A stretch of DNA of 37,238 nucleotides from Geodermatophilaceae bacterium. GTDB taxonomy: Bacteria; Actinomycetota; Actinomycetes; Mycobacteriales; Geodermatophilaceae. The notes under the pieces are model-generated. The model was given only the letters and a program-made list of their open reading frames with translations, searched no databases and was not told the origin of the DNA. Positions 7,452 to 16,200 of this stretch are shown here, piece by piece. The first letter of the stretch is position 1. Each line of letters opens with the position of its first letter. A program made the position numbers and the translations under genes. The stretch lies in contig JACCZY010000081.1 in NCBI GenBank assembly GCA_013695685.1, positions 1 to 37,238 on the forward strand, given 5' to 3'.

Positions 7452-8194
7452 GTGTGTGCCGCCGCGAACACCCGCCGGAACGGGAACAGCGTGCCGAAGC
7501 GGCCGGATGGGTACGCCGCCCGCAGCGCGGCGCCGTACTCGGCCAGGAAGCCGGCATGGTGCTCCGGCGGGAGCGCGGCGAGCACCGGCCGCAGCGCCGT
7601 GCCCTTGACCCAGTCCAGCACGGGCTCAGGCCCGGCCAGCACCTGCAGGTACGTCGTTTCCCACGCGTCGACGCGGCAGCCGGCAGCGCCGAGCAGTTCG
7701 GCGTAGCCGGCCGGGTCGAGCACGGGCTCTGCGCGAAGCGCGAGGCCGGGCAGCCATCGCGCGGTCGCCTCCCGCAGCAACACGTGCGAGGGCGCCGCGA
7801 AGTTGCCGGGTACCTGCAGCGCGAGCCAGCCACCGGGGGCCAGACAACCCACCAGCTCGCGCAGCACCTGCTCGTGCCCCTCGACCCACTGCATGGTGGC
7901 CGAGCTCACCACGATGTCGATCGGACGGTCCGGACGCCAGTGCCGGGCGTCTGCCTGAGTGAACTTCAGGCGGGGCATGGACGACGGTGCCTGAGCCAAC
8001 ATCTCCGCAGAGCTGTCGACCCCGAGCACCATCGCCTCGGGCCACCGCCGCGCCAGCAACGCCGTCAACTCTCCCGAACCGCAGCCCACATCCACGACGT
8101 ACGACGGCGCACACGCCTCGACACGGGCCATCAGGTCGTGGAACGGCCGGCCCCGCTGGTCGGCGTACCTGCCGTACTGCGCCGGGTCCCACAT
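7448..8194 (-). CDS. tam: trans-aconitate 2-methyltransferase-like SAM methyltransferase
   Basis: A 248-residue class I methyltransferase. The start is taken at ATG 8194 because MWDPAQYGRYADQRGRPFHD is the usual beginning of Tam proteins; the frame opens further upstream without homology. Motif I is VVDVGCGSGELT (about residues 33-44). GVDSSAEML follows as the acidic ribose-binding strand, then ADARHWRP, VVSSATMQWVEGHEQ and LAPGGWLALQVPGN. The C-terminal half (TTYLQVLAGPEPVLDWVKGT and LRAAYP) is specific to this family. Tam methylates trans-aconitate, a by-product that inhibits aconitase. The substrate is inferred from family membership. It is the first gene of the minus-strand operon with the VOC gene. 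Confidence 0.85.
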   Translation of the reverse strand: MWDPAQYGRYADQRGRPFHDLMARVEACAPSYVVDVGCGSGELTALLARRWPEAMVLGVDSSAEMLAQAPSSMPRLKFTQADARHWRPDRPIDIVVSSATMQWVEGHEQVLRELVGCLAPGGWLALQVPGNFAAPSHVLLREATARWLPGLALRAEPVLDPAGYAELLGAAGCRVDAWETTYLQVLAGPEPVLDWVKGTALRPVLAALPPEHHAGFLAEYGAALRAAYPSGRFGTLFPFRRVFAAAHT

Positions 8195-8348
8195 GCGACT
8201 GACCGTCCCTTCGATAGGACGATACCGGTGACTCCGACGCCGCAACCCCCGCATGGGATCACCGGATGCCGGCGCGTCGGCAGTAAAGTGAGGCAGCCAT
8301 CCCCGGCGCACGCGAGTTGGGAGCCGAGTCATCGACGCGAGGCGATCG

Positions 8349-10379
8349 GTGGGCAGGCACGAGAACGCCGTCCTCGCGCTGTTGCGCATCCCGGTACTAC
8401 GCCGGATGTGGGCCGCCATCACCGTGTCCAGCCTCGGGGACTGGCTGGGTCTGCTCGCCAACACCGCGCTGGCTCAGCAGCTGACGTCGGATCGCTCGGT
8501 TGCCGCGCAGGGGGCGGCCATCTCCGGTGTGATCCTGACCCGGCTGCTGCCCGACCTGCTGCTCGGTCCGATCGCCGGCGCCCTCGCGGACAAGCTGGAC
8601 CGCCGACGAACAATCATCATCGGCGACGTCTCCGCCGGAATGCTGTTCCTGTCCATCGCCATCACCTACGACCTGGTGTGGCTCTACGTCGCACAGTTCC
8701 TCATCGAGGCGGTCGGCCTGTTCACGATGCCGGCCAAGCAGGCGATCTGGGTCAATATCGTTCCGCGCGAGAAGCTGCCTGTCGCGAATCAGATGTCGCT
8801 GATCTCGGTGTACGGCGCGGTTCCGGTGGCCGCGCTCATCTTCGCGCTGCTGTCGACCTTCAACCGGTTCTTTCAGGATCCGCTGCTCGCCAGCGCGCGG
8901 GTGCCCATCGTGATCGCGCTGGTCTTCAACGCGCTCACGTTCTTCGCCGCGGCGCTGACGGTCTACCTCGTGCGCCGCGACATCCCGGTTTTCCTGGCCG
9001 GCAGCGGCGAGACGAAGAACATGTTCTCCGCCATCCGCGAGGGGATGTCCTTCATCTGGACGAATCCGGTTCTTCGCGGTCTGTACATCGGAATCCTCGG
9101 CGCGTTCCTGTCCGGCGGCGTCGTGGTCGGCGTCGCGCAGCTCTACGTCGCGACCCTGGACGCCGGCAACGCCGGGTACAGCATCCTGTTCGGAACCGTG
9201 TTCACCGGACTGGCCCTAGGCATGATCGTCGGCCCGCGCATCCTGCCGGGCATCAGCCGGCGACGGCTCTTCGGCCTTTCCATCGGCCTGTCCGGCGCCT
9301 CGTTGGTGACCATGTCGCTGATGGGGGACTTCGTCCTCGTCCTGGCGCTGGCCCTGCTGGTCGGGTTCTTCGGCGGCATCGCCTGGATCAACGGCTACAC
9401 CATGATCGGGTACGAGGTGGAGGATCGGCTGCGCGGACGCGTGTTCGCCTTTATCTTGTCCTCGGTCCGGATCGCGCTGCTGCTGTCGGTCGCCGTCGGG
9501 CCGCTGCTGGCCGGTTCGCTGGGTCAACGCAGCGTCCGCATGCGCGAAAGCGAGCTGGCCTTCTCCGGCCCGAGCACCACGCTGCTGGTGGCGGGCTTGC
9601 TGGCCACCGCGGTCGGGCTCTACGCCTACCGTGCGGTCGGCGGGCGCGGGCGGCGACTCGTGGACATTTTGTGGCACACGGTTTCCCGACCGGACCTGCT
9701 AGGTGACGAGCATGTCGAGACCGGGCTGTTCATCGCCTTCGAGGGGTCCTCGTCAGATCAGATCGCCAGCCAGGCGATGAGTCTGGCCGAGCGGTTGCGG
9801 CGCGACGGGTACCGGGTGATCAGCACCGGCGAGCCGGGTGACACCGCGGCCGGCCGGCAGATCGCGGCCATCCTGAGTGGCCGCGCGACGACGACGCCGC
9901 TGGCGCCGGCGACGGAGTGCCTGCTGTACCTCGCCGACCGCGCCGAGCATGTGGCCAGGGTCGTGCGACCGGCGTTGCAGCAGCGCCAGGTCGTCGTCTG
10001 CCAGCGGTACGTCGACTCCACCGTCGCCTACCAAGGCGCCGGTCGCGGCCTGGACCCCAGCCGGATCCGGCGTACGTCGCAGTGGGTGACCGGCAGCCTC
10101 GCGCCGGACCTGACGGTCGTGCTGGACAGCGCCGTCGGTGCCGGTGGGGACGCGGCCGTTCGCCACATGTTCCTGGAGATCGCCGATGCGGACCCGGACC
10201 GCTACCTCGTCCTGCCCGCGGACCTGCGGGCGGATGCGATAGCCGGGGCCGTCGATGAGCAGGTGGCGGCACTGCTCGCCACCCGGTCGGAGCGGGTTGC
10301 ACGCGACCTTCCCGATGCCCGGCAGGCGTCGGCAGGTCACGGTGGCGGCACCGCCGGCACCGTCGCCGCTGCTGGGTAG
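8349..10379 (+). CDS. MFS transporter fused to a degenerate thymidylate-kinase-like domain
   Basis: A 676-residue protein from GTG 8349. Residues about 10-430 form an MFS-type membrane domain of roughly 12 helices, with the loop GALADKLDRRRTIIIGD between helices 2 and 3. Residues about 455-655 align with the neighbouring tmk (11217-11849). The P-loop FEGGEGAGKSTQ of the real enzyme is replaced by FEGSSSDQIASQ, TREPG by TGEPG and the DRYVDS motif by QRYVDS. The LID segment is absent. The stretch YVDSTVAYQGAGRGL is kept. The kinase part therefore should not bind ATP in the normal way or phosphorylate dTMP, although it may still bind a nucleotide. Automated annotation may call this dTMP kinase; I would not. 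It lies upstream of a methyltransferase, tmk and holB on the same strand, and its membrane cargo is unknown. Confidence 0.88.
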   Translation: MGRHENAVLALLRIPVLRRMWAAITVSSLGDWLGLLANTALAQQLTSDRSVAAQGAAISGVILTRLLPDLLLGPIAGALADKLDRRRTIIIGDVSAGMLFLSIAITYDLVWLYVAQFLIEAVGLFTMPAKQAIWVNIVPREKLPVANQMSLISVYGAVPVAALIFALLSTFNRFFQDPLLASARVPIVIALVFNALTFFAAALTVYLVRRDIPVFLAGSGETKNMFSAIREGMSFIWTNPVLRGLYIGILGAFLSGGVVVGVAQLYVATLDAGNAGYSILFGTVFTGLALGMIVGPRILPGISRRRLFGLSIGLSGASLVTMSLMGDFVLVLALALLVGFFGGIAWINGYTMIGYEVEDRLRGRVFAFILSSVRIALLLSVAVGPLLAGSLGQRSVRMRESELAFSGPSTTLLVAGLLATAVGLYAYRAVGGRGRRLVDILWHTVSRPDLLGDEHVETGLFIAFEGSSSDQIASQAMSLAERLRRDGYRVISTGEPGDTAAGRQIAAILSGRATTTPLAPATECLLYLADRAEHVARVVRPALQQRQVVVCQRYVDSTVAYQGAGRGLDPSRIRRTSQWVTGSLAPDLTVVLDSAVGAGGDAAVRHMFLEIADADPDRYLVLPADLRADAIAGAVDEQVAALLATRSERVARDLPDARQASAGHGGGTAGTVAAAG

Positions 10380-10389
10380 ATTCGCCGCC

Positions 10390-11220
10390 ATGGCCCACGG
10401 TGACCGCAGCGCGTGTACCCGGGAATGGACAGCCGCCGACGTCGAACCGGTCTCGTGCTGTGTCTGCCACATCGACGGCGACCGGGTCTACGACCTGCCG
10501 CCGTTCGCCGTCGTCCGTTGCCCGCGCTGCCGGCTCGCGTTCGTCAGTCCCCGGCTGCGCACGGAGGCCCTGCAGGCGGTGTACGACGACGTCGGGTACT
10601 TCGAGGGCGGGGTGTACGGCTCGACGTGGTCGCCGGCGATGGTCCTCCAGCGGGTCTGGACCGCCGGTCGGCTCGGCCTGATTCGTGCCGCGCTGTCCCG
10701 GCCCCCGGCCGGGACCCGGATGCTGGAGGTCGGGTGCGGCTACGGCCTGTTCCTCGCCGCCGCTCGACAGCGGGGGTACGACGTCACCGGCGTCGAACTG
10801 TCCCGCTCGGCCTCTCGCCACGCCCGCGACGTCCTGGACCTGAGCGTCCACCAGGGCCAACTCGACGCGGCGGTGCTCGACGGCCGGTACGACGTCATCG
10901 CCGCCTGGGACACGCTGGAGCACGTCCCCGACCCGGTGGCGTTCCTGCGGACCGCACGGACGCTCCTCGCCGACGACGGCGTGCTCGTGTTCTCCACGCC
11001 GTACTTCTCCTCGCTGCCCGCCCGGCTGCTGCGCACGCGGTGGTGGACGTTGAAGCCGACCGAACACATCTGGCACTTCACCCCGCAGAGCCACCACCTG
11101 GTTTTCGCCCGGGCCGGCCTGGCCGTCACGCGGATCCTGCGCAACCCGCTCGCGCCTGCCAACTTCGGTCGGCTGGACTCGCTGGTCGGTGTGGCGCGGC
11201 GTATTCCGGACCTCACGTGA
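10390..11220 (+). CDS. class I SAM methyltransferase with N-terminal zinc ribbon
   Basis: A 276-residue protein starting at ATG 10390, ten bases after the MFS-fusion stop. The N-terminus has CCVC (C23, C24, C26) and CPRC (C44, C47), a likely zinc ribbon, followed by LAFVSPRL. This is the beginning typical of Methyltransf_23-type enzymes linked to sugar or polysaccharide modification. The SAM-binding motif is LEVGCGYGLFLAAARQRGYD (about 112-131), with GVELSRSA as motif II and AWDTLEHVPDP as the post-II loop. The C-terminus (TEHIWHFTPQSHHLVFARAG) is also usual. The substrate is unknown. Its stop overlaps the tmk GTG (GTGA), so it is coupled to tmk. Confidence 0.85.
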   Translation: MAHGDRSACTREWTAADVEPVSCCVCHIDGDRVYDLPPFAVVRCPRCRLAFVSPRLRTEALQAVYDDVGYFEGGVYGSTWSPAMVLQRVWTAGRLGLIRAALSRPPAGTRMLEVGCGYGLFLAAARQRGYDVTGVELSRSASRHARDVLDLSVHQGQLDAAVLDGRYDVIAAWDTLEHVPDPVAFLRTARTLLADDGVLVFSTPYFSSLPARLLRTRWWTLKPTEHIWHFTPQSHHLVFARAGLAVTRILRNPLAPANFGRLDSLVGVARRIPDLT

Positions 11221-11849
11221 GTGGGCTCTTCGTCGCGTTCGAGGGGGGCGAGGGAGCCGGCAAGTCCACCCAGGTCGCCCGGCTCGACGGCTGGCTGCAG
11301 GAGCAGGGGATCAGCGCCCGACTGACCCGGGAACCAGGCGCGACGCCGGCGGGGGAGCGGATCAGGGCGATCGTTCTCGATCCCACGTCCTCGCTGACAC
11401 CGCGTGCGGAGGCCCTGCTCTACGCCGCGGACCGCGCACAACACGTCGAGACGGTGATCCGTCCGGTCCTCGCCGCCGGCGGAGTCGTCATCAGCGACCG
11501 GTACGTCGACAGCTCGCTGGCCTACCAGGGCGCGGGACGGGCGCTGTCCCTGCCGAAGGTGCGGCAGGTGTCGGAGTGGGCCACCGGAGGGCTGGTCCCC
11601 GACCTCACCGTCGTACTCGACATCGAGCCGGCAGCGGGGCTCGCGCGGGCCGCCGGTCACCGCAGCCCGGACCGGATCGAGCAGGAGTCTCTCGCCTTCC
11701 ACGAGCGGGTGCGGGCCGGGTTCTGCGAGCTGGCCGCAGCCGATCCGGCTCGCTACCTCGTCCTGGACGCCTCCGGTGACCCCGACGAACTCGCGGGGAC
11801 CGTCCGCGGTCGGCTGGCCCCCGTCGTGCGCCTGCTGGCGGCCCGGTGA
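11217..11849 (+). CDS. tmk: thymidylate kinase (dTMP kinase)
   Basis: A 210-residue enzyme that converts dTMP to dTDP with ATP, the essential step of dTTP supply. The P-loop is FEGGEGAGKSTQ (about residues 7-18), TREPGATPAGERIR follows, then the DRYVDSSLAYQGAGR motif that binds dTMP and Mg2+, and VVLDIEP. A LID-like segment, GHRSPDRIEQE, is present. All key residues are intact, in contrast to the fused domain at 8349-10379. Start GTG 11217 overlaps the methyltransferase stop, and its stop overlaps the holB GTG by GTGA, giving a tightly coupled run. The tmk-holB pairing is common in bacteria. Confidence 0.97.
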   Translation: MSGLFVAFEGGEGAGKSTQVARLDGWLQEQGISARLTREPGATPAGERIRAIVLDPTSSLTPRAEALLYAADRAQHVETVIRPVLAAGGVVISDRYVDSSLAYQGAGRALSLPKVRQVSEWATGGLVPDLTVVLDIEPAAGLARAAGHRSPDRIEQESLAFHERVRAGFCELAAADPARYLVLDASGDPDELAGTVRGRLAPVVRLLAAR

Positions 11850-13069
11850 GCCACCCTGGGGCGGCGGCGGCAGCCGGCGGCGTCTGGGAAGACCTCGTCG
11901 GTCAGCCGGAGACGGTGACCACGCTGCGTGCCGCCGCGGCAGCCGCGGGCCGCATCGTCGTGGGCCTCGACGCGCCCGCGCGCGATGCCGCATCGATGAC
12001 GCACTCGTGGCTGTTCACCGGTCCACCGGGCTCCGGGCGATCGGTCGCCGCCCGAGCGTTCGCCGCCGCCTTGCAGTGCCCGGACGGCGGCTGCGGGCAG
12101 TGCGGGCAGTGCCACACAGTTCGTGCCGGCACACACGCCGACGTGCACGTCGTCGTACCGGACGGCCTGTCCATTCCGGTGCGGGACATGCGCCAGCTCG
12201 TCCGTACGGCGGCCCGGCGGCCCTCGGCCGGCCGCTGGCAGGTTGTCATCGTCGAGGACGCCGACCGGCTTACCGAAGGTGCGGCCAACGCGCTGCTCAA
12301 GGCTGTGGAGGAGCCGCCGGCGCGAACCGTTTTCTTGCTCTGCGCCCCGTCGACGCACCCCGACGACGTGTCCGTGACCCTCCGGTCGCGCTGCCGGGTA
12401 GTCCCGCTGAGGGTTCCTGACGACGCTGCCGTCGCCGAGGTCCTCGTCCGCCGCGACGGCATCGACGCAGCCCAGGCGGCGTGGGCGGCGAGCGCGGCGC
12501 AGGGGCACGTCGGCAGGGCCAGGTGGCTGGCAGGCGACGAGCAGGCCCGGATCCGCCGCAAGGCGGTGCTGGACATCCCGTTGTCTCTGCGCTCCTTGGC
12601 CGAGTCCTTCGCCGCCGCCGACGAGCTGGTCGGTGGTGCCGAGGAGGAAGCGGCCGGCCGTTCCCGGGAACGGGACGAGCCGGAGGCGGAGGCCCTGCGA
12701 ACCGCGCTGGGAGCCGGCGGCACCGGCAAGGGAGCCACCGCCGCGGGCCGGGGTTCGGCGGCGCAGCTCAAGGACCTGGAGCGCCGCCAGAAGTCACGTT
12801 CGACCCGGGCGCAGCGCGACGCACTGGACCGCGCCCTGGTGGACCTGGCCGGGTTGTACCGGGACGCCCTGTCGGTTCAGTGCGGGTCGGGGACGAGGCT
12901 GTGGCACGCAGACCGCGAACCTGACATCCGGCGCCTGGCCCGCGGGCTCACCGCCGAGGGGATCCTGCGCCGGCTCGAAGCGGTGCTGGCCGCCCGTACC
13001 GCGCTGGAACTCAACGTCAAGCCGCGCGTGGCCATCGAGGCGTTGACCGTCGCGTTGCGGCTGCCCTGA
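11846..13069 (+). CDS. holB: DNA polymerase III delta-prime subunit (clamp loader)
   Basis: A 407-residue AAA+ protein. It begins VWEDLVGQPETVTTLR, then a Walker-A-like GPPGSGRS (residues 59-66) in which the usual lysine is arginine, then a zinc module C78, C83, C86, C89 (CPDGGCGQCGQC). The Walker-B-like VVIVEDADRLTEGAANALLK and the SRC motif (LRSRCRVVPL) follow. Delta-prime subunits are known not to hydrolyse ATP and act as the stator of the clamp loader, so the altered Walker A agrees with the function. Residues about 270-320 contain a charged, alanine-rich insertion (KDLERRQKSRSTRAQRDALD) before the C-terminal collar domain. It follows tmk with a GTGA overlap. Start GTG 11846 is supported by this overlap. 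Confidence 0.93.
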   Translation: MSHPGAAAAAGGVWEDLVGQPETVTTLRAAAAAAGRIVVGLDAPARDAASMTHSWLFTGPPGSGRSVAARAFAAALQCPDGGCGQCGQCHTVRAGTHADVHVVVPDGLSIPVRDMRQLVRTAARRPSAGRWQVVIVEDADRLTEGAANALLKAVEEPPARTVFLLCAPSTHPDDVSVTLRSRCRVVPLRVPDDAAVAEVLVRRDGIDAAQAAWAASAAQGHVGRARWLAGDEQARIRRKAVLDIPLSLRSLAESFAAADELVGGAEEEAAGRSRERDEPEAEALRTALGAGGTGKGATAAGRGSAAQLKDLERRQKSRSTRAQRDALDRALVDLAGLYRDALSVQCGSGTRLWHADREPDIRRLARGLTAEGILRRLEAVLAARTALELNVKPRVAIEALTVALRLP

Positions 13070-13103
13070 GAAGCACCGGCCACCCCGGTCCTACCCTGTA
13101 CCG

Positions 13104-13967
13104 ATGGGCATGCTCTGCGCGGTCAGCTTCACCAGGCACGGCCGGCTGTACTACTTCGATCCGGATGGATTCGCCCCCCGCGTGGGAGACAAGGTGCTCA
13201 TCCCGACCGACGACGGGAGTGAGGTGGCCGAATGCGTCTGGTCGGCGCAGTGGGCCGACGTGGACGTTGCCGGCTTTCCGTCGCTTGCCGGGATGGCCAC
13301 TGCGCAGGACATCGCACGCGATGACGCGCTGCGCCGCCACAAGGCGCGCGCGCGAGTCGCCGCCAAGCGACTGATCCGCGAGCATCAGCTGCCGATGAAG
13401 GTGGTGGCCGTCGACGCCGTCCTCGACGCGGCCGATGCGCCGACCCGCTCGATCGTGTTCTTCAGCGCCCAGCATCGCGTCGACTTCCGGGCACTCGTAC
13501 GAGACCTCGGTGCCACGCTCAAGACCCGGGTCGAGTTGCGTCAGCTCTCCGCCCGCGACGAGGCGCGCGTGCAAGGCGGCATCGGCTCCTGTGGACGTGA
13601 CCTGTGCTGCGCGACATTCCTCAAGGGCTTTGAGCCGGTCTCCATCCGGATGGCCAAGGACCAGGACCTGCCGTTGAACCCGATGCGCATCTCCGGCGCC
13701 TGCGGGCGGCTGATGTGCTGCCTGAAGTACGAGCATCCGCTGTACGCCGACTTCCTGGAAACCGCGCCCGCCATCGGCGAGCAGGTCGACACCCCGGACG
13801 GCACCGGCCGGGTCGTGGGGCGCAACGTGCCGTCGGACACGCTGACCGTCCGGCTGGACGACGGCGGCCGGCGCTGCGCGTGCAGCAAGGCGGACGTTTG
13901 CGGCTCCCGCGCGGCCTATACCGGCAGCGTCGCGGCCCAGGGTCCGGCCGGGGGCGGCCTGCCGTAG
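13104..13967 (+). CDS. PSP1-domain protein, RicT/YaaT-like
   Basis: A 287-residue protein with the PSP1 domain of RicT (YaaT). The N-terminal part has LYYFDPDGFAPRVGDKVLIP, the middle has the PSP1 core (LIREHQLPMKVVAVDAVLD, SAQHRVDFRALVRDLG, RVELRQLSARDEAR). The diagnostic cysteine patches follow: C163, C168, C169 in GSCGRDLCC and C200, C205, C206 in SGACGRLMCCLKYEH. In Bacillus the RicA-F-T complex carries Fe-S clusters and affects RNase Y-dependent RNA maturation. Actinobacteria have RicT-like proteins without a full Ric complex, so the role here is uncertain. The position after holB is the usual one. ATG 13104 begins the conserved GMLCAVSFTRHG segment. Confidence 0.9.
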   Translation: MGMLCAVSFTRHGRLYYFDPDGFAPRVGDKVLIPTDDGSEVAECVWSAQWADVDVAGFPSLAGMATAQDIARDDALRRHKARARVAAKRLIREHQLPMKVVAVDAVLDAADAPTRSIVFFSAQHRVDFRALVRDLGATLKTRVELRQLSARDEARVQGGIGSCGRDLCCATFLKGFEPVSIRMAKDQDLPLNPMRISGACGRLMCCLKYEHPLYADFLETAPAIGEQVDTPDGTGRVVGRNVPSDTLTVRLDDGGRRCACSKADVCGSRAAYTGSVAAQGPAGGGLP

Positions 13968-13987
13968 GCTTGGCAGCCGCGTACAGC

Positions 13988-14063
13988 GCCGCCTTAGCTC
14001 AGTTGGTAGAGCGATTCACTCGTAATGAATAGGTCGTCGGTTCGATTCCGACAGGCGGCTCCA
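13988..14063 (+). tRNA. tRNA-Thr (anticodon CGT)
   Basis: A 76-base cloverleaf with encoded CCA (14061-14063). The acceptor stem is GCCGCCT paired with AGGCGGC (14053-14059), with discriminator T 14060. The D arm lies at AGCTCAGTTGGTAGAGC. The anticodon stem ATTCA/TGAAT encloses loop CTCGTAA, giving anticodon CGT, which reads ACG threonine codons. The T arm is GTCGGTTCGATTCCGAC. It lies 20 bases after the PSP1 gene stop. The minus-strand GGDEF-EAL ORF runs into it from the other side. Confidence 0.97.
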
Positions 14064-16200
14064 CCTGCTCGGTGTCGCCAGCGGCCCGGGCCGTCGGGCG
14101 GCTGTGCTGGGTCAGCAGCAGTCGGCGATAGTCCGCGGCATCGAGCGGTTGGCTGAACAACCATCCCTGCCCGCTGTCACAGCCGATCTGCTCGACGCCG
14201 GCGAGCTGTTCCGGCGACTCGATGCCCTCCGCGACGACCTCCAGGTCGTAGGCGTGGGCGAGGTCGACGATCGCTCGGACGATCGCCGCCTGCCGGCTGC
14301 CGGGTGCGACGTCCTGGGCGAAGCTGCGGTCGATCTTGAGGAAGTCCAACGGCAGCCGCTGCAGCGAGTACAGGCTGGAGTGCCCGGTGCCGAAGTCGTC
14401 CAGGCCGACCCGGACGCCGGCGTTGCGCAGTCGTTGCACGCCGGCGACCGACGGCCCGGCCGGGTCGAGCAGCGCACGTTCGGTGAGTTCGACGCGCAGG
14501 GCCGTTCCGGGCAGTCCGGCGTCGGTCAGGGCGGTGGTGACCCACTCCGCGAATTGCCCGGCGGAGACGTTGCGGTAGCTCAGGTTGATCCCCACGAACA
14601 ACGCCGGATCCACAGCACGGAAACTGGTCTGGTCGGCCAGTGCCTGCCGCAGCACCCAATCGTCCAGCTCTCGGATGAGGCCGGTGTCCTCTGCCACGGT
14701 CAGGAACTCACCGGGAGCCAGTGCCCCGCCGGCCCCGTCGCGGATTCGGAGCAGCCCCTCGGCTCCCAGCACCTGCCCGTCGCTGATCCGCACGATCGGC
14801 TGGTACAGCAGGTACATGTCCTGCCCCGCGAGCGCCAGCCGCAGCGCGCGTTGGATACCGAGCCGGCGCAGGGCCCGAGCCTGCAGTTCGCCGTCGAAGA
14901 GCTCGTGCCGATCCCGGCCACGGTCCTTGGCCCGGTACAGGGCGAGGTCGGCCTCGTGCATCAGATCCTCGACGGGCTGGTCGGCTCGGGTGGTGACCGC
15001 GACCCCCACGCTCACCGTGAGCAGCAGGCTCTGCTCGTCGCCGGGCATCGGCCCGCTGACCTGGAACGGCTCGCGCAGCACGACGACGAGGCGCTCGGCG
15101 AGCTCGTGTACGTCCTCGGCGCTCGTCAGACCCTCAGCCAGTACGACGAACTCGTCGCCGCCGTAGCGGGCGACGCTGTCCGACGGGCGGCAGGCCGCCA
15201 CCAGGCGCTGCGCCGTGGCGACGAGCACCTCGTCCCCCACCCGGTGGCCCAGCGAGTCATTGACCCGTTTGAAGTGATCCAGGTCGATAAGCAGCACGGC
15301 GACAGTTCCCGGGGTGCGTTCCAGTCGGAGCAGGGCGCCACGCATGCGGTCGGTGAGCACTGTGCGGTTCGCCGTACCGGTCAACGGATCGGTCTGTGCC
15401 TGACGCGTGAGCGCGTCCTGTGCGGTCCGGCGAGCGTTGACGTCCCGCGTGTTGCCGATGACGGCGAGAAGCTTTCCGGTGTCGCTGTCCCTGATCTGCT
15501 GACCGGTGCTTTCCAGCCAACGGTAGGACCCGTCGGCGCGGCGGAACCGGGCCGAGATCGTGAGGACGCCGGGATCGGTCAGGAGGTCGTGCAGGCCGGC
15601 CCGCAGCCCCTCCACGTCGTCGGGATGGATGAACTCGTAGATGTCGCGCCCGACCATGTCCTGCGGCCGCCAGCCGAAGACCGTCTGCCCTGCCGGTGAC
15701 ACGTAATTGAACACGCCTTCGCGGTTGGATTCGGTGATGGCGTCGGAGGAGTTCTCGGCCATCAGCCGGTAGCGCGCCTCGGAGTCGACAAGGCGCATGT
15801 CGGCGAGCTTGCGCTCGGTGATGTCCCTCGCGATGGCGTACAGGAGTTGCTCTTCGGGATCGGCTGCCCAGCTCCAGTGCAGCCACCGGTACTCCCCGTC
15901 CGCGGCCCGGCAGCGGTTCTCCAGATGCTTGGTCTGGTCATCGCCGTTCACGGCGACGCGCAACGCCGCCGCGGAGATTTCGACGTCCTCGGGGTGCACC
16001 AGCTCGAGGAAGTGGCGCCCCACCAACGTGCCCGCAGAGCTGGTGAGGTCGTCCTCCCAACTCCCGGAGGCCCACCGGATGATCCCGTCGAACCCGCAGA
16101 TCGCCGTCAGGTCGCGGCTGAGCCGGTGCGACCAGTCGTCGCTGATCGCGCCGGGGGGTGGGGGTGACGGCACCGTCACTGATCGTCCGTCTCCCGGCAT
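13999..16200 (-). CDS. PAS-PAS-GGDEF-EAL cyclic-di-GMP turnover protein; ORF ends inside tRNA-Thr
   Basis: A 733-residue ORF with two PAS domains (about 25-130 and 140-258), a GGDEF domain (about 265-430) and an EAL domain (about 445-695). The active-site GGDEF is intact (347-351), and an RxxD product-inhibition site (R338, D341) lies exactly five residues before it. So c-di-GMP synthesis is plausible. In the EAL domain the signature is EGLL (481-484) instead of EALL. The metal and catalytic residues in INLS, VELTE, DDFGTGHSSL (601-610), KIDRSF and VVAEGIE are present, so phosphodiesterase activity is possible. No membrane segment is seen, so it is probably cytosolic. Residues 713-733 are the antisense reading of the tRNA gene; the real folded protein ends before about residue 700. 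The start is the ATG at 16200. Confidence 0.92.
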   Translation of the reverse strand: MPGDGRSVTVPSPPPPGAISDDWSHRLSRDLTAICGFDGIIRWASGSWEDDLTSSAGTLVGRHFLELVHPEDVEISAAALRVAVNGDDQTKHLENRCRAADGEYRWLHWSWAADPEEQLLYAIARDITERKLADMRLVDSEARYRLMAENSSDAITESNREGVFNYVSPAGQTVFGWRPQDMVGRDIYEFIHPDDVEGLRAGLHDLLTDPGVLTISARFRRADGSYRWLESTGQQIRDSDTGKLLAVIGNTRDVNARRTAQDALTRQAQTDPLTGTANRTVLTDRMRGALLRLERTPGTVAVLLIDLDHFKRVNDSLGHRVGDEVLVATAQRLVAACRPSDSVARYGGDEFVVLAEGLTSAEDVHELAERLVVVLREPFQVSGPMPGDEQSLLLTVSVGVAVTTRADQPVEDLMHEADLALYRAKDRGRDRHELFDGELQARALRRLGIQRALRLALAGQDMYLLYQPIVRISDGQVLGAEGLLRIRDGAGGALAPGEFLTVAEDTGLIRELDDWVLRQALADQTSFRAVDPALFVGINLSYRNVSAGQFAEWVTTALTDAGLPGTALRVELTERALLDPAGPSVAGVQRLRNAGVRVGLDDFGTGHSSLYSLQRLPLDFLKIDRSFAQDVAPGSRQAAIVRAIVDLAHAYDLEVVAEGIESPEQLAGVEQIGCDSGQGWLFSQPLDAADYRRLLLTQHSRPTARAAGDTEQVEPPVGIEPTTYSLRVNRSTN

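Follow-up and report, generated by a model that had tools for sequence, protein, structure and literature searches.

Repeated loss of catalytic motifs in a thymidylate kinase domain fused to a predicted transporter in Actinomycetes

The 37,238-nucleotide stretch of contig JACCZY010000081.1 from a Geodermatophilaceae bacterium (assembly GCA_013695685.1; hereafter, the window) encodes a protein in which a transporter of the major facilitator superfamily (MFS) is joined to a domain homologous to thymidylate (dTMP) kinase, Tmk. Comparison of sequences indicates that an intact form of this fusion exists elsewhere, that the P-loop, the Asp of the DRX motif, and the LID segment have been lost in the window, that an intact tmk gene lies alongside, and that the altered domain is under purifying selection in the window genus. 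On balance, we think it probable that the pseudoenzyme is retained for a structural or assembly function in the transporter. The protein belongs to a widespread actinomycete family of MFS transporters that carry dTMP kinase as a cytosolic domain at the C terminus; in the window lineage, the kinase half would have become a pseudoenzyme while dTMP kinase activity passed to a stand-alone Tmk encoded in the same operon. The pseudo-Tmk domain would then have been kept because it folds, dimerizes, or supports, stabilizes, or assembles the transporter, and not for phosphorylating or sensing dTMP, a reading suggested by the fact that selection keeps mostly the core of the domain and the long α3 helix. 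The relevant features, in window coordinates, are:

8349..10379, + strand: MFS–pseudo-Tmk fusion, GTG start, 676 aa (Pfam and NCBIfam matches, structure model)
8349..9650, + strand: MFS domain, residues 1–434, with 12 helices of ≥20 residues and a motif-A-like GALADKLDRRR
9717..10298, + strand: pseudo-Tmk domain, residues 457–650 (profile matches and domain model)
9744..9770, + strand: degenerate P-loop, residues 466–474, GSSSDQIAS where tmk has GGEGAGKST
10002..10010, + strand: altered DRX motif, residues 552–554, QRY where tmk has DRY
10131..10151, + strand: approximate site of the absent LID segment, residues 595–601 (motif alignment)
11217..11849, + strand: intact stand-alone dTMP kinase gene (tmk), 210 aa, catalytic motifs present (Pfam/NCBIfam)

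An initial annotation, made from the letters of the sequence, had described a 12-helix transporter fused to a catalytically dead Tmk next to a real tmk, and this description was borne out by the open reading frames (ORFs), by Pfam, and by the 44% identity between the fused and stand-alone Tmk domains. The Thymidylate_kin model (PF02223) matches fusion residues 474–594 with 92.9 bits against a cut-off of 27, and the neighboring tmk with 160.8 bits. Motif comparison agreed with each change that had been reported: besides the P-loop, TREPG has become TGEPG and DRYVDS has become QRYVDS (so that the Arg of DRX is kept and the Asp lost), the LID segment with its D-R-I-E is missing, and YVDSxxAYQGAGR is retained. 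The pattern GX4GK[ST] occurs nowhere in the C-terminal part of the fusion. The α2 arginine, which the annotation had not mentioned, is also lost (R to A at residue 506), and the α3 arginine that contacts thymine is retained as R531. The former P-loop varies even inside the window genus (GSSSDQIAS, GSRSDQITA, GVRDEPADE).

Catalytic loss with retention of the fold, also part of that annotation, is what structure prediction and comparison with Tmk, the check it had proposed, point to. The full model (mean pLDDT, the predicted local distance difference test, 83.8) contains a five-strand Tmk core, and the best Foldseek matches are thymidylate kinases (3uwk_B, TMt 0.87). The Tmk domain was folded separately because the VIA-align rows listed for the full model were MFS chains; two sequences with internal stops (L278 with two, L213 with one) were excluded from the alignment used for folding. 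The resulting domain model (pLDDT 92.2; predicted template-modeling score, pTM, 0.89) superposes on Thermus Tmk (5xal) with Z 27.6 and a root-mean-square deviation (rmsd) of 1.4 Å over 179 residues. The catalytic motifs thus appear, from sequence, to be lost from a domain whose Tmk fold is predicted to be intact.

The survey for the full-length fusion sampled 200 genomes from the order and 296 from the class, and motifs were read in 96 order fusion loci, 40 class-wide loci, and 20 more loci of family f32 (families, genera, genomes, and loci are numbered with f, g, G, and L). The 96 order loci are part of the places listed, further members having been left out mainly from f10, f13, f15, and f16; we also dropped L073, where the contig ends inside the domain, a 42-aa piece of L152, L198, and L201. 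The P-loop pattern GxxxxGK[ST] is present in 52 of 52 order-set domain rows labeled intact, a label that was assigned by genus after the motifs had been seen, and in 37 of 40 class-wide loci, the others being one pseudo-fusion and two loci with a frame break between the halves. Class-wide loci with the pattern include two from f33, a family with large genomes, and three from f40, whose genomes are small (1.2–1.6 Mb). Among the 51 order genomes with an intact fusion, the fusion was the only Thymidylate_kin match in 35 when up to 15 candidates per genome were scored, so in many cases it is the sole candidate for dTMP kinase in the cell. Judged by these counts, the intact MFS–Tmk fusion is widespread in Actinomycetes, common though not universal, and the initial suggestion of a widespread architecture holds. 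The survey does include related genera with an intact P-loop (Blastococcus), which the annotation had counted as evidence against a pseudokinase; the pseudokinase reading stands, with the intact form as the state before decay.

One genome, G110 (f10; 88% complete, 3% contamination), carries two full-length intact fusions, L113 and L120, and is the only genome with two full-length fusions among the matches listed; none with one intact and one pseudo-fusion was found among them. A possible natural fission at L198 (G422) and L201 (G411) was rejected, since the halves lie in overlapping different frames and a frameshift or assembly error is likely.

The closest named relatives of the window fusion are in Geodermatophilaceae metagenome bins (L203–L205, 77%–88% identical), followed by Geodermatophilus (L206–L211), and it is 38%–44% identical to 20 intact fusions (634–696 aa), with both halves collinear and homology over the full length. 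Three groups have pseudo-fusions: (i) the window genus, Geodermatophilus (g5), g31, f3, and f4, together the window clade; (ii) f15; and (iii) f32. The P-loop pattern is found in none of 14 pseudo-fusions of the window clade without f4, none of 12 in f4, and none of 18 in f15. In a tree of the MFS halves, the window clade (27 rows, 100/100) is separate from f15 (18 rows, 100/100), and the f15 clade is nested among intact fusions. When f32 was added in a later tree that omits L198 and L201, giving 120 rows with at most two rows per genus for the order set and all 18 decayed f32 domains counted as pseudo, three changes were needed and starred branches forced three. On these trees, the kinase half has died at least three times independently, in the window clade, f15, and f32. 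The loss in f32 is graded: the P-loop is intact in four of four domains of g77 and g144, reads GAEGAGRST (K to R) in five of eight from g94 and GAAGAGKTT in two of four from g106, and is fully changed in six of six from g122, so that GxxxxGK[ST] remains in 1/8, 2/4, and 0/6, respectively. All 18 decayed domains of these last three genera have changes in the EPG and YQGAGR stretches. Low-complexity inserts also stand at the former LID site in many rows of this f32 series (L283–L302, L184, L189).

Pseudo-fusions lie 5′ of holB, as intact fusions do, in the window, L203, g31, f3, and 9 of 12 f4 loci, and topA lies 5′ of the pseudo-fusion in L203 and in both f4 loci tested, all of these being pseudo-fusion loci. 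Import of the pseudo-fusion into the window family need not be invoked, as it occupies the place of the intact fusion 5′ of holB. In the MFS tree, however, the closest grouping of the window fusion is with g31, f3, and f4, not Blastococcus; lateral transfer and an old tandem duplication followed by differential loss are both possible. One locus named Blastococcus (L214, Blastococcus sp. CPCC 205250) is of the pseudo type (GADRELTRR), the other three (L265, L268, L271) being intact, and its genome is possibly a misnamed Geodermatophilus.

A dead kinase half is, as far as these genomes indicate, nearly always accompanied by another tmk. Thymidylate_kin matches two genes of the window genome (2.98 Mb, 98.8% complete), the fusion and the intact tmk, which lies 0.8 kb 3′ of it in the same tightly spaced operon. 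In the window clade without f4, a stand-alone match with E 4.8e-44 or better is present in 14 of 15 genomes, the sole exception, G165, being a 76% complete genome in which a contig end interrupts the fusion. Mycobacterial-type tmk genes score above the NF005923 cut-off in all pseudo-fusion genomes tested from f4 (12/12) and f15 (18/18), where they would supply the kinase activity, and a further Thymidylate_kin match, in some cases weak, is present in 18 of 18 f32 genomes labeled pseudo. On a quick tree of Tmk sequences, the stand-alone form requires five changes, four of them forced by starred branches; one of the five, L198 (retained as one row of this tree), is probably a frame error. In both Geodermatophilus and g6, the stand-alone genes cluster with fused tmk from the same family, and that of the window falls in a starred 35-row clade with its own family and f2, f7, f9, and f12, with no closer placement. 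Stand-alone tmk thus arose repeatedly, we infer through loss of an MFS head. At L162 (G078, genus g6), the order is topA, methyltransferase, stand-alone tmk, and holB, with no MFS half, and there is no full-length fusion elsewhere in G078 among the matches listed; the transporter has thus seemingly been lost from this genome.

The pattern of constraint is what favors a structural role. Ratios of nonsynonymous to synonymous substitution (dN/dS) were obtained by the NG86 method, a rough measure for GC-rich genes when some sequences are shared between pairs; they are 0.16–0.21 for the pseudo-domain in the window genus (three pairs of three sequences; highest upper 95% bound 0.31), 0.13–0.31 in Geodermatophilus (three pairs), and 0.06–0.19 in f15 (four pairs), compared with 0.13–0.24 for intact fusions (five pairs). 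The pseudo-domain is not cut short in any of 44 order-set pseudo rows. Mean pairwise identity of each element was calculated for 11 window-clade representatives (without f4), 60 intact fusions, 9 of f15, and 12 of f4. Between the window clade and intact fusions, it falls from 0.88 to 0.28 in the P-loop, from 0.89 to 0.36 in DRX, from 0.89 to 0.43 in α4, from 0.81 to 0.52 in EPG, and from 0.54 to 0.40 in α7; for α3, it is 0.69 versus 0.75, and for core strands β1 to β4, 0.54 versus 0.58, 0.52 versus 0.54, 0.62 versus 0.66, and 0.80 versus 0.79. The values are 0.79 (α3) and 0.76 (β1) in f15 and 0.50 (α3) and 0.05 (α2) in f4. Constraint has therefore gone from the active site and largely remains on the core and α3.

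Several observations weigh against this interpretation, in addition to the roughness of the dN/dS estimates. Retention of the core and α3 is expected of any folded domain and is no proof of dimerization, and one core strand, β5, is at 0.46 in the window clade versus 0.71 in intact fusions. The pseudo-domain of f4 is weakly constrained (dN/dS 0.39 and 0.50), L146 of f15 has a gap across the DRX stretch, and the f32 values are 0.23, 0.24, and 1.47, the last for a pair that is near-identical outside the domain with low-complexity inserts inside it; the domain may be decaying in some lineages. Three of 12 g94 and g106 domains that we counted as pseudo still match GxxxxGK[ST]. No full-length fusion match was found in f8 (order survey), in 5 of 17 f4 genomes, or in four genomes of the f15 genus g38, and Tmk-level matches only were found in six of six g6 genomes and, at that level or weaker, in many families of the class (e.g., f41, f49, f51); by these matches, the whole fusion is dispensable in places. 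In the full model, pTM is 0.64 and the linker (residues 438–456) has pLDDT <50, making the predicted relative placement of the two domains unreliable. The interpretation draws on sequences and models.

The initial annotation had proposed a sensor or gate that reads thymidine nucleotides; in such a role, the pseudo-Tmk domain would still bind dTMP, or a nucleotide like it, with no catalysis and would control the activity of the transporter. Sensing is possible in the window genus and in f15: in the former, the dTMP (acceptor) side of the pocket is mostly retained (Y527, R531, R553, S557, Q562, R566), and f15 representatives keep R531 in 9/9, R553 in 8/9, and S557 in 8/9. Residues of α3 and α4 contact dTMP in human thymidylate kinase (TMPK), where α3, longer than any other helix, makes up the dimer interface and bears the Arg (R76) that contacts thymine (PMC8679000, excerpt). 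However, R506 and D552 are gone in the window itself, the contact stretches of the window clade have been lost much faster than most of its core, and f4 has lost nearly all of the dTMP-side pocket. Among window-clade representatives (without f4), 5 of 11 have the DRX Arg, as does 1 of 12 from f4; Gln562 is present in 4/11, 0/12, and, for f15, 0/9, where Y561 is likewise 0/9; and the α3 Arg is present in 0/12 of f4. Nucleotide contacts thus drift, least in the window genus and partly in f15, and we regard a sensor as unlikely. That the domain instead heterodimerizes with the real Tmk, tethering it at the membrane where the ancestral enzyme was located, is similarly improbable. The same operon with its 4-nt overlaps, the adjacency of pseudo-fusion and tmk in one readable g31 locus and five of five f3 loci, and the rank of the dimer helix α3 as the best-kept helix would all fit such a tether, but the two genes are at separate loci in Geodermatophilus, and f4 and f15 have as their other tmk the mycobacterial type, whose distance makes it an improbable partner in a dimer; even so, α3 is best kept in f15 (0.79).

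A functionless domain that has simply not been lost yet would accord with the strong erosion in f4 and the stepwise decay in f32, and a relic is possible in f4 and parts of f32. In the window genus, Geodermatophilus, and f15, a relic is unlikely because dN/dS is about as low as in intact kinases and the domain is uncut, and as a general explanation we consider it distinctly improbable. Continued kinase activity, through an unusual ATP site or on another nucleotide, would be in keeping with the retained fold and partial acceptor pocket, but the P-loop stretch is unconserved even within the window genus and the LID is gone, the segment in which type II TMPKs have their catalytic Arg (PMC3169407, excerpt); we give this very little credence. 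It is also conceivable, though we hold it rather unlikely, that the Tmk domain always had a second job, unrelated to phosphorylating dTMP, in regulating or assembling the transporter as one of its subunits, in which case the window genus could have a nucleotide-gated transporter that binds dTMP and no longer ATP. If so, another tmk would free the domain from catalysis and leave it the second job alone, which would explain why a dead domain is kept in three independent lineages.

A structural or assembly role presupposes a transporter that works, and the MFS half probably still is one. MFS_1 (PF07690) matches residues 21–295 with 66.7 bits, and the model has its 12 helices of ≥20 residues within residues 15–431. 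The modeled MFS half aligns with VMAT2 (8jtc; Z 34.4, rmsd 3.0 Å, 381 residues) and also with NorA, YegT, and NupG (Z 30–34 and 8%–13% identity, VMAT2 included), alignments that indicate the fold only. Conserved loop and membrane residues of MFS proteins matter for transport. Across 31 sequences (11 pseudo and 20 intact), D31, W32, D81, R85, E120, K130, D359, and R362-G363-R364 are invariant, as are the motif-A-like GALADKLDRRR stretch and other MFS residues in the aligned fusions of both kinds. When its sequence was searched against solved structures, the MFS half had no match at E up to 1, and every NCBIfam transporter model that it matched scored under its cut-off, including the H+ antiporter subfamily TIGR00900 (103.3 bits, curated cut-off 319.6).

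Downstream of the fusion, the window has:

10390..11220, + strand: S-adenosylmethionine (SAM)-dependent methyltransferase (Methyltransf_23), likely start 10 nt past the fusion stop, 4-nt overlap with the tmk start
11846..13069, + strand: holB (DNA polymerase III delta′ subunit), 4-nt overlap with the tmk stop
13104..13967, + strand: PSP1-domain protein (RicT-like; profile match)

The order is tight and operon-like (fusion, 10 nt, methyltransferase, tmk, holB, PSP1-domain gene); in region 8100–14000, promoter-like sites number 0 versus 0.2 in shuffles and terminator-like sites 2 versus 1.7. A Methyltransf_23 gene is directly 3′ of the pseudo-fusion in the window and seven of seven Geodermatophilus loci, and one is just 5′ of holB in 6 of 12 f4 loci (e.g., L065 4124–4975, L079 5380–6468), two of these f4 methyltransferases being only 30% and 42% identical. 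A functional tie between the methyltransferase and the transporter is possible. An anti-phage role was considered and set aside: the fusion has no PADLOC match, and the mad2 match of the methyltransferase (52.9 bits) covers residues 102–208 only. Farther along, tRNA-Thr(CGT) (13988–14063, + strand) overlaps the 3′ end of a minus-strand PAS-PAS-GGDEF-EAL ORF (13999–16200) whose last residues are GIEPTTYSLRVNRSTN; either the true gene end is elsewhere, or an antisense overlap is tolerated.

Among known systems, the nearest is the intact actinomycete fusion (e.g., Blastococcus xanthinilyticus L268, 173.8 bits to TIGR00041), which shares the domain order, homology over the full length, and, in most loci read, a downstream holB, and differs in its intact P-loop, DRX, and LID and in being so often the genome's sole Thymidylate_kin match. 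Stand-alone type II dTMP kinases of TIGR00041 (the window tmk, Thermus 5xal, Pseudomonas 3uwk) share the fold with pseudo-Tmk but have no transporter and retain the catalytic motifs, and the mycobacterial type (NF005923/PRK07933) is distant, the pseudo-fusion scoring 23.5 bits against a cut-off of 193. The MFS half is weakly similar (47.1 bits, cut-off 1221) to NF006386, an acyl-[ACP]-phospholipid acyltransferase that we take to be an MFS–enzyme fusion with a different enzyme. Pseudoenzymes and transporter–enzyme fusions are known kinds of protein. We found no paper on an MFS–Tmk fusion in the open literature, most subscription journals being outside its coverage, and a Tmk domain repeatedly killed and largely retained on a transporter appears undescribed as far as that literature shows. 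SCO3542 is presumably a fusion of this kind. An expression table gives SCO3542 as “putative thymidine kinase” (PMC3897704, excerpt), a tmk single-nucleotide polymorphism is mentioned in Streptomyces (PMC11835810, excerpt), and in PMC10892726 (excerpt) the co-occurrence, in gene maps of archaea, is due to chance.

In the window genus, the pseudo-fusion passes the cut-off of the dTMP-kinase equivalog TIGR00041 (95.7 bits for the window and 106.7 for L203; cut-off 83.25), creating a risk of misannotation in genomes like that of the window, where an automatic pipeline could name it dTMP kinase; those tested from Geodermatophilus, f3, f4, and f15 score below it. In many Actinomycetes, an enzyme expected to be essential for thymidine triphosphate (dTTP) synthesis sits fused to a putative transporter, and three independent, partly graded catalytic losses provide a natural experiment in which the catalytic role of its domain can be told apart from the non-catalytic one.

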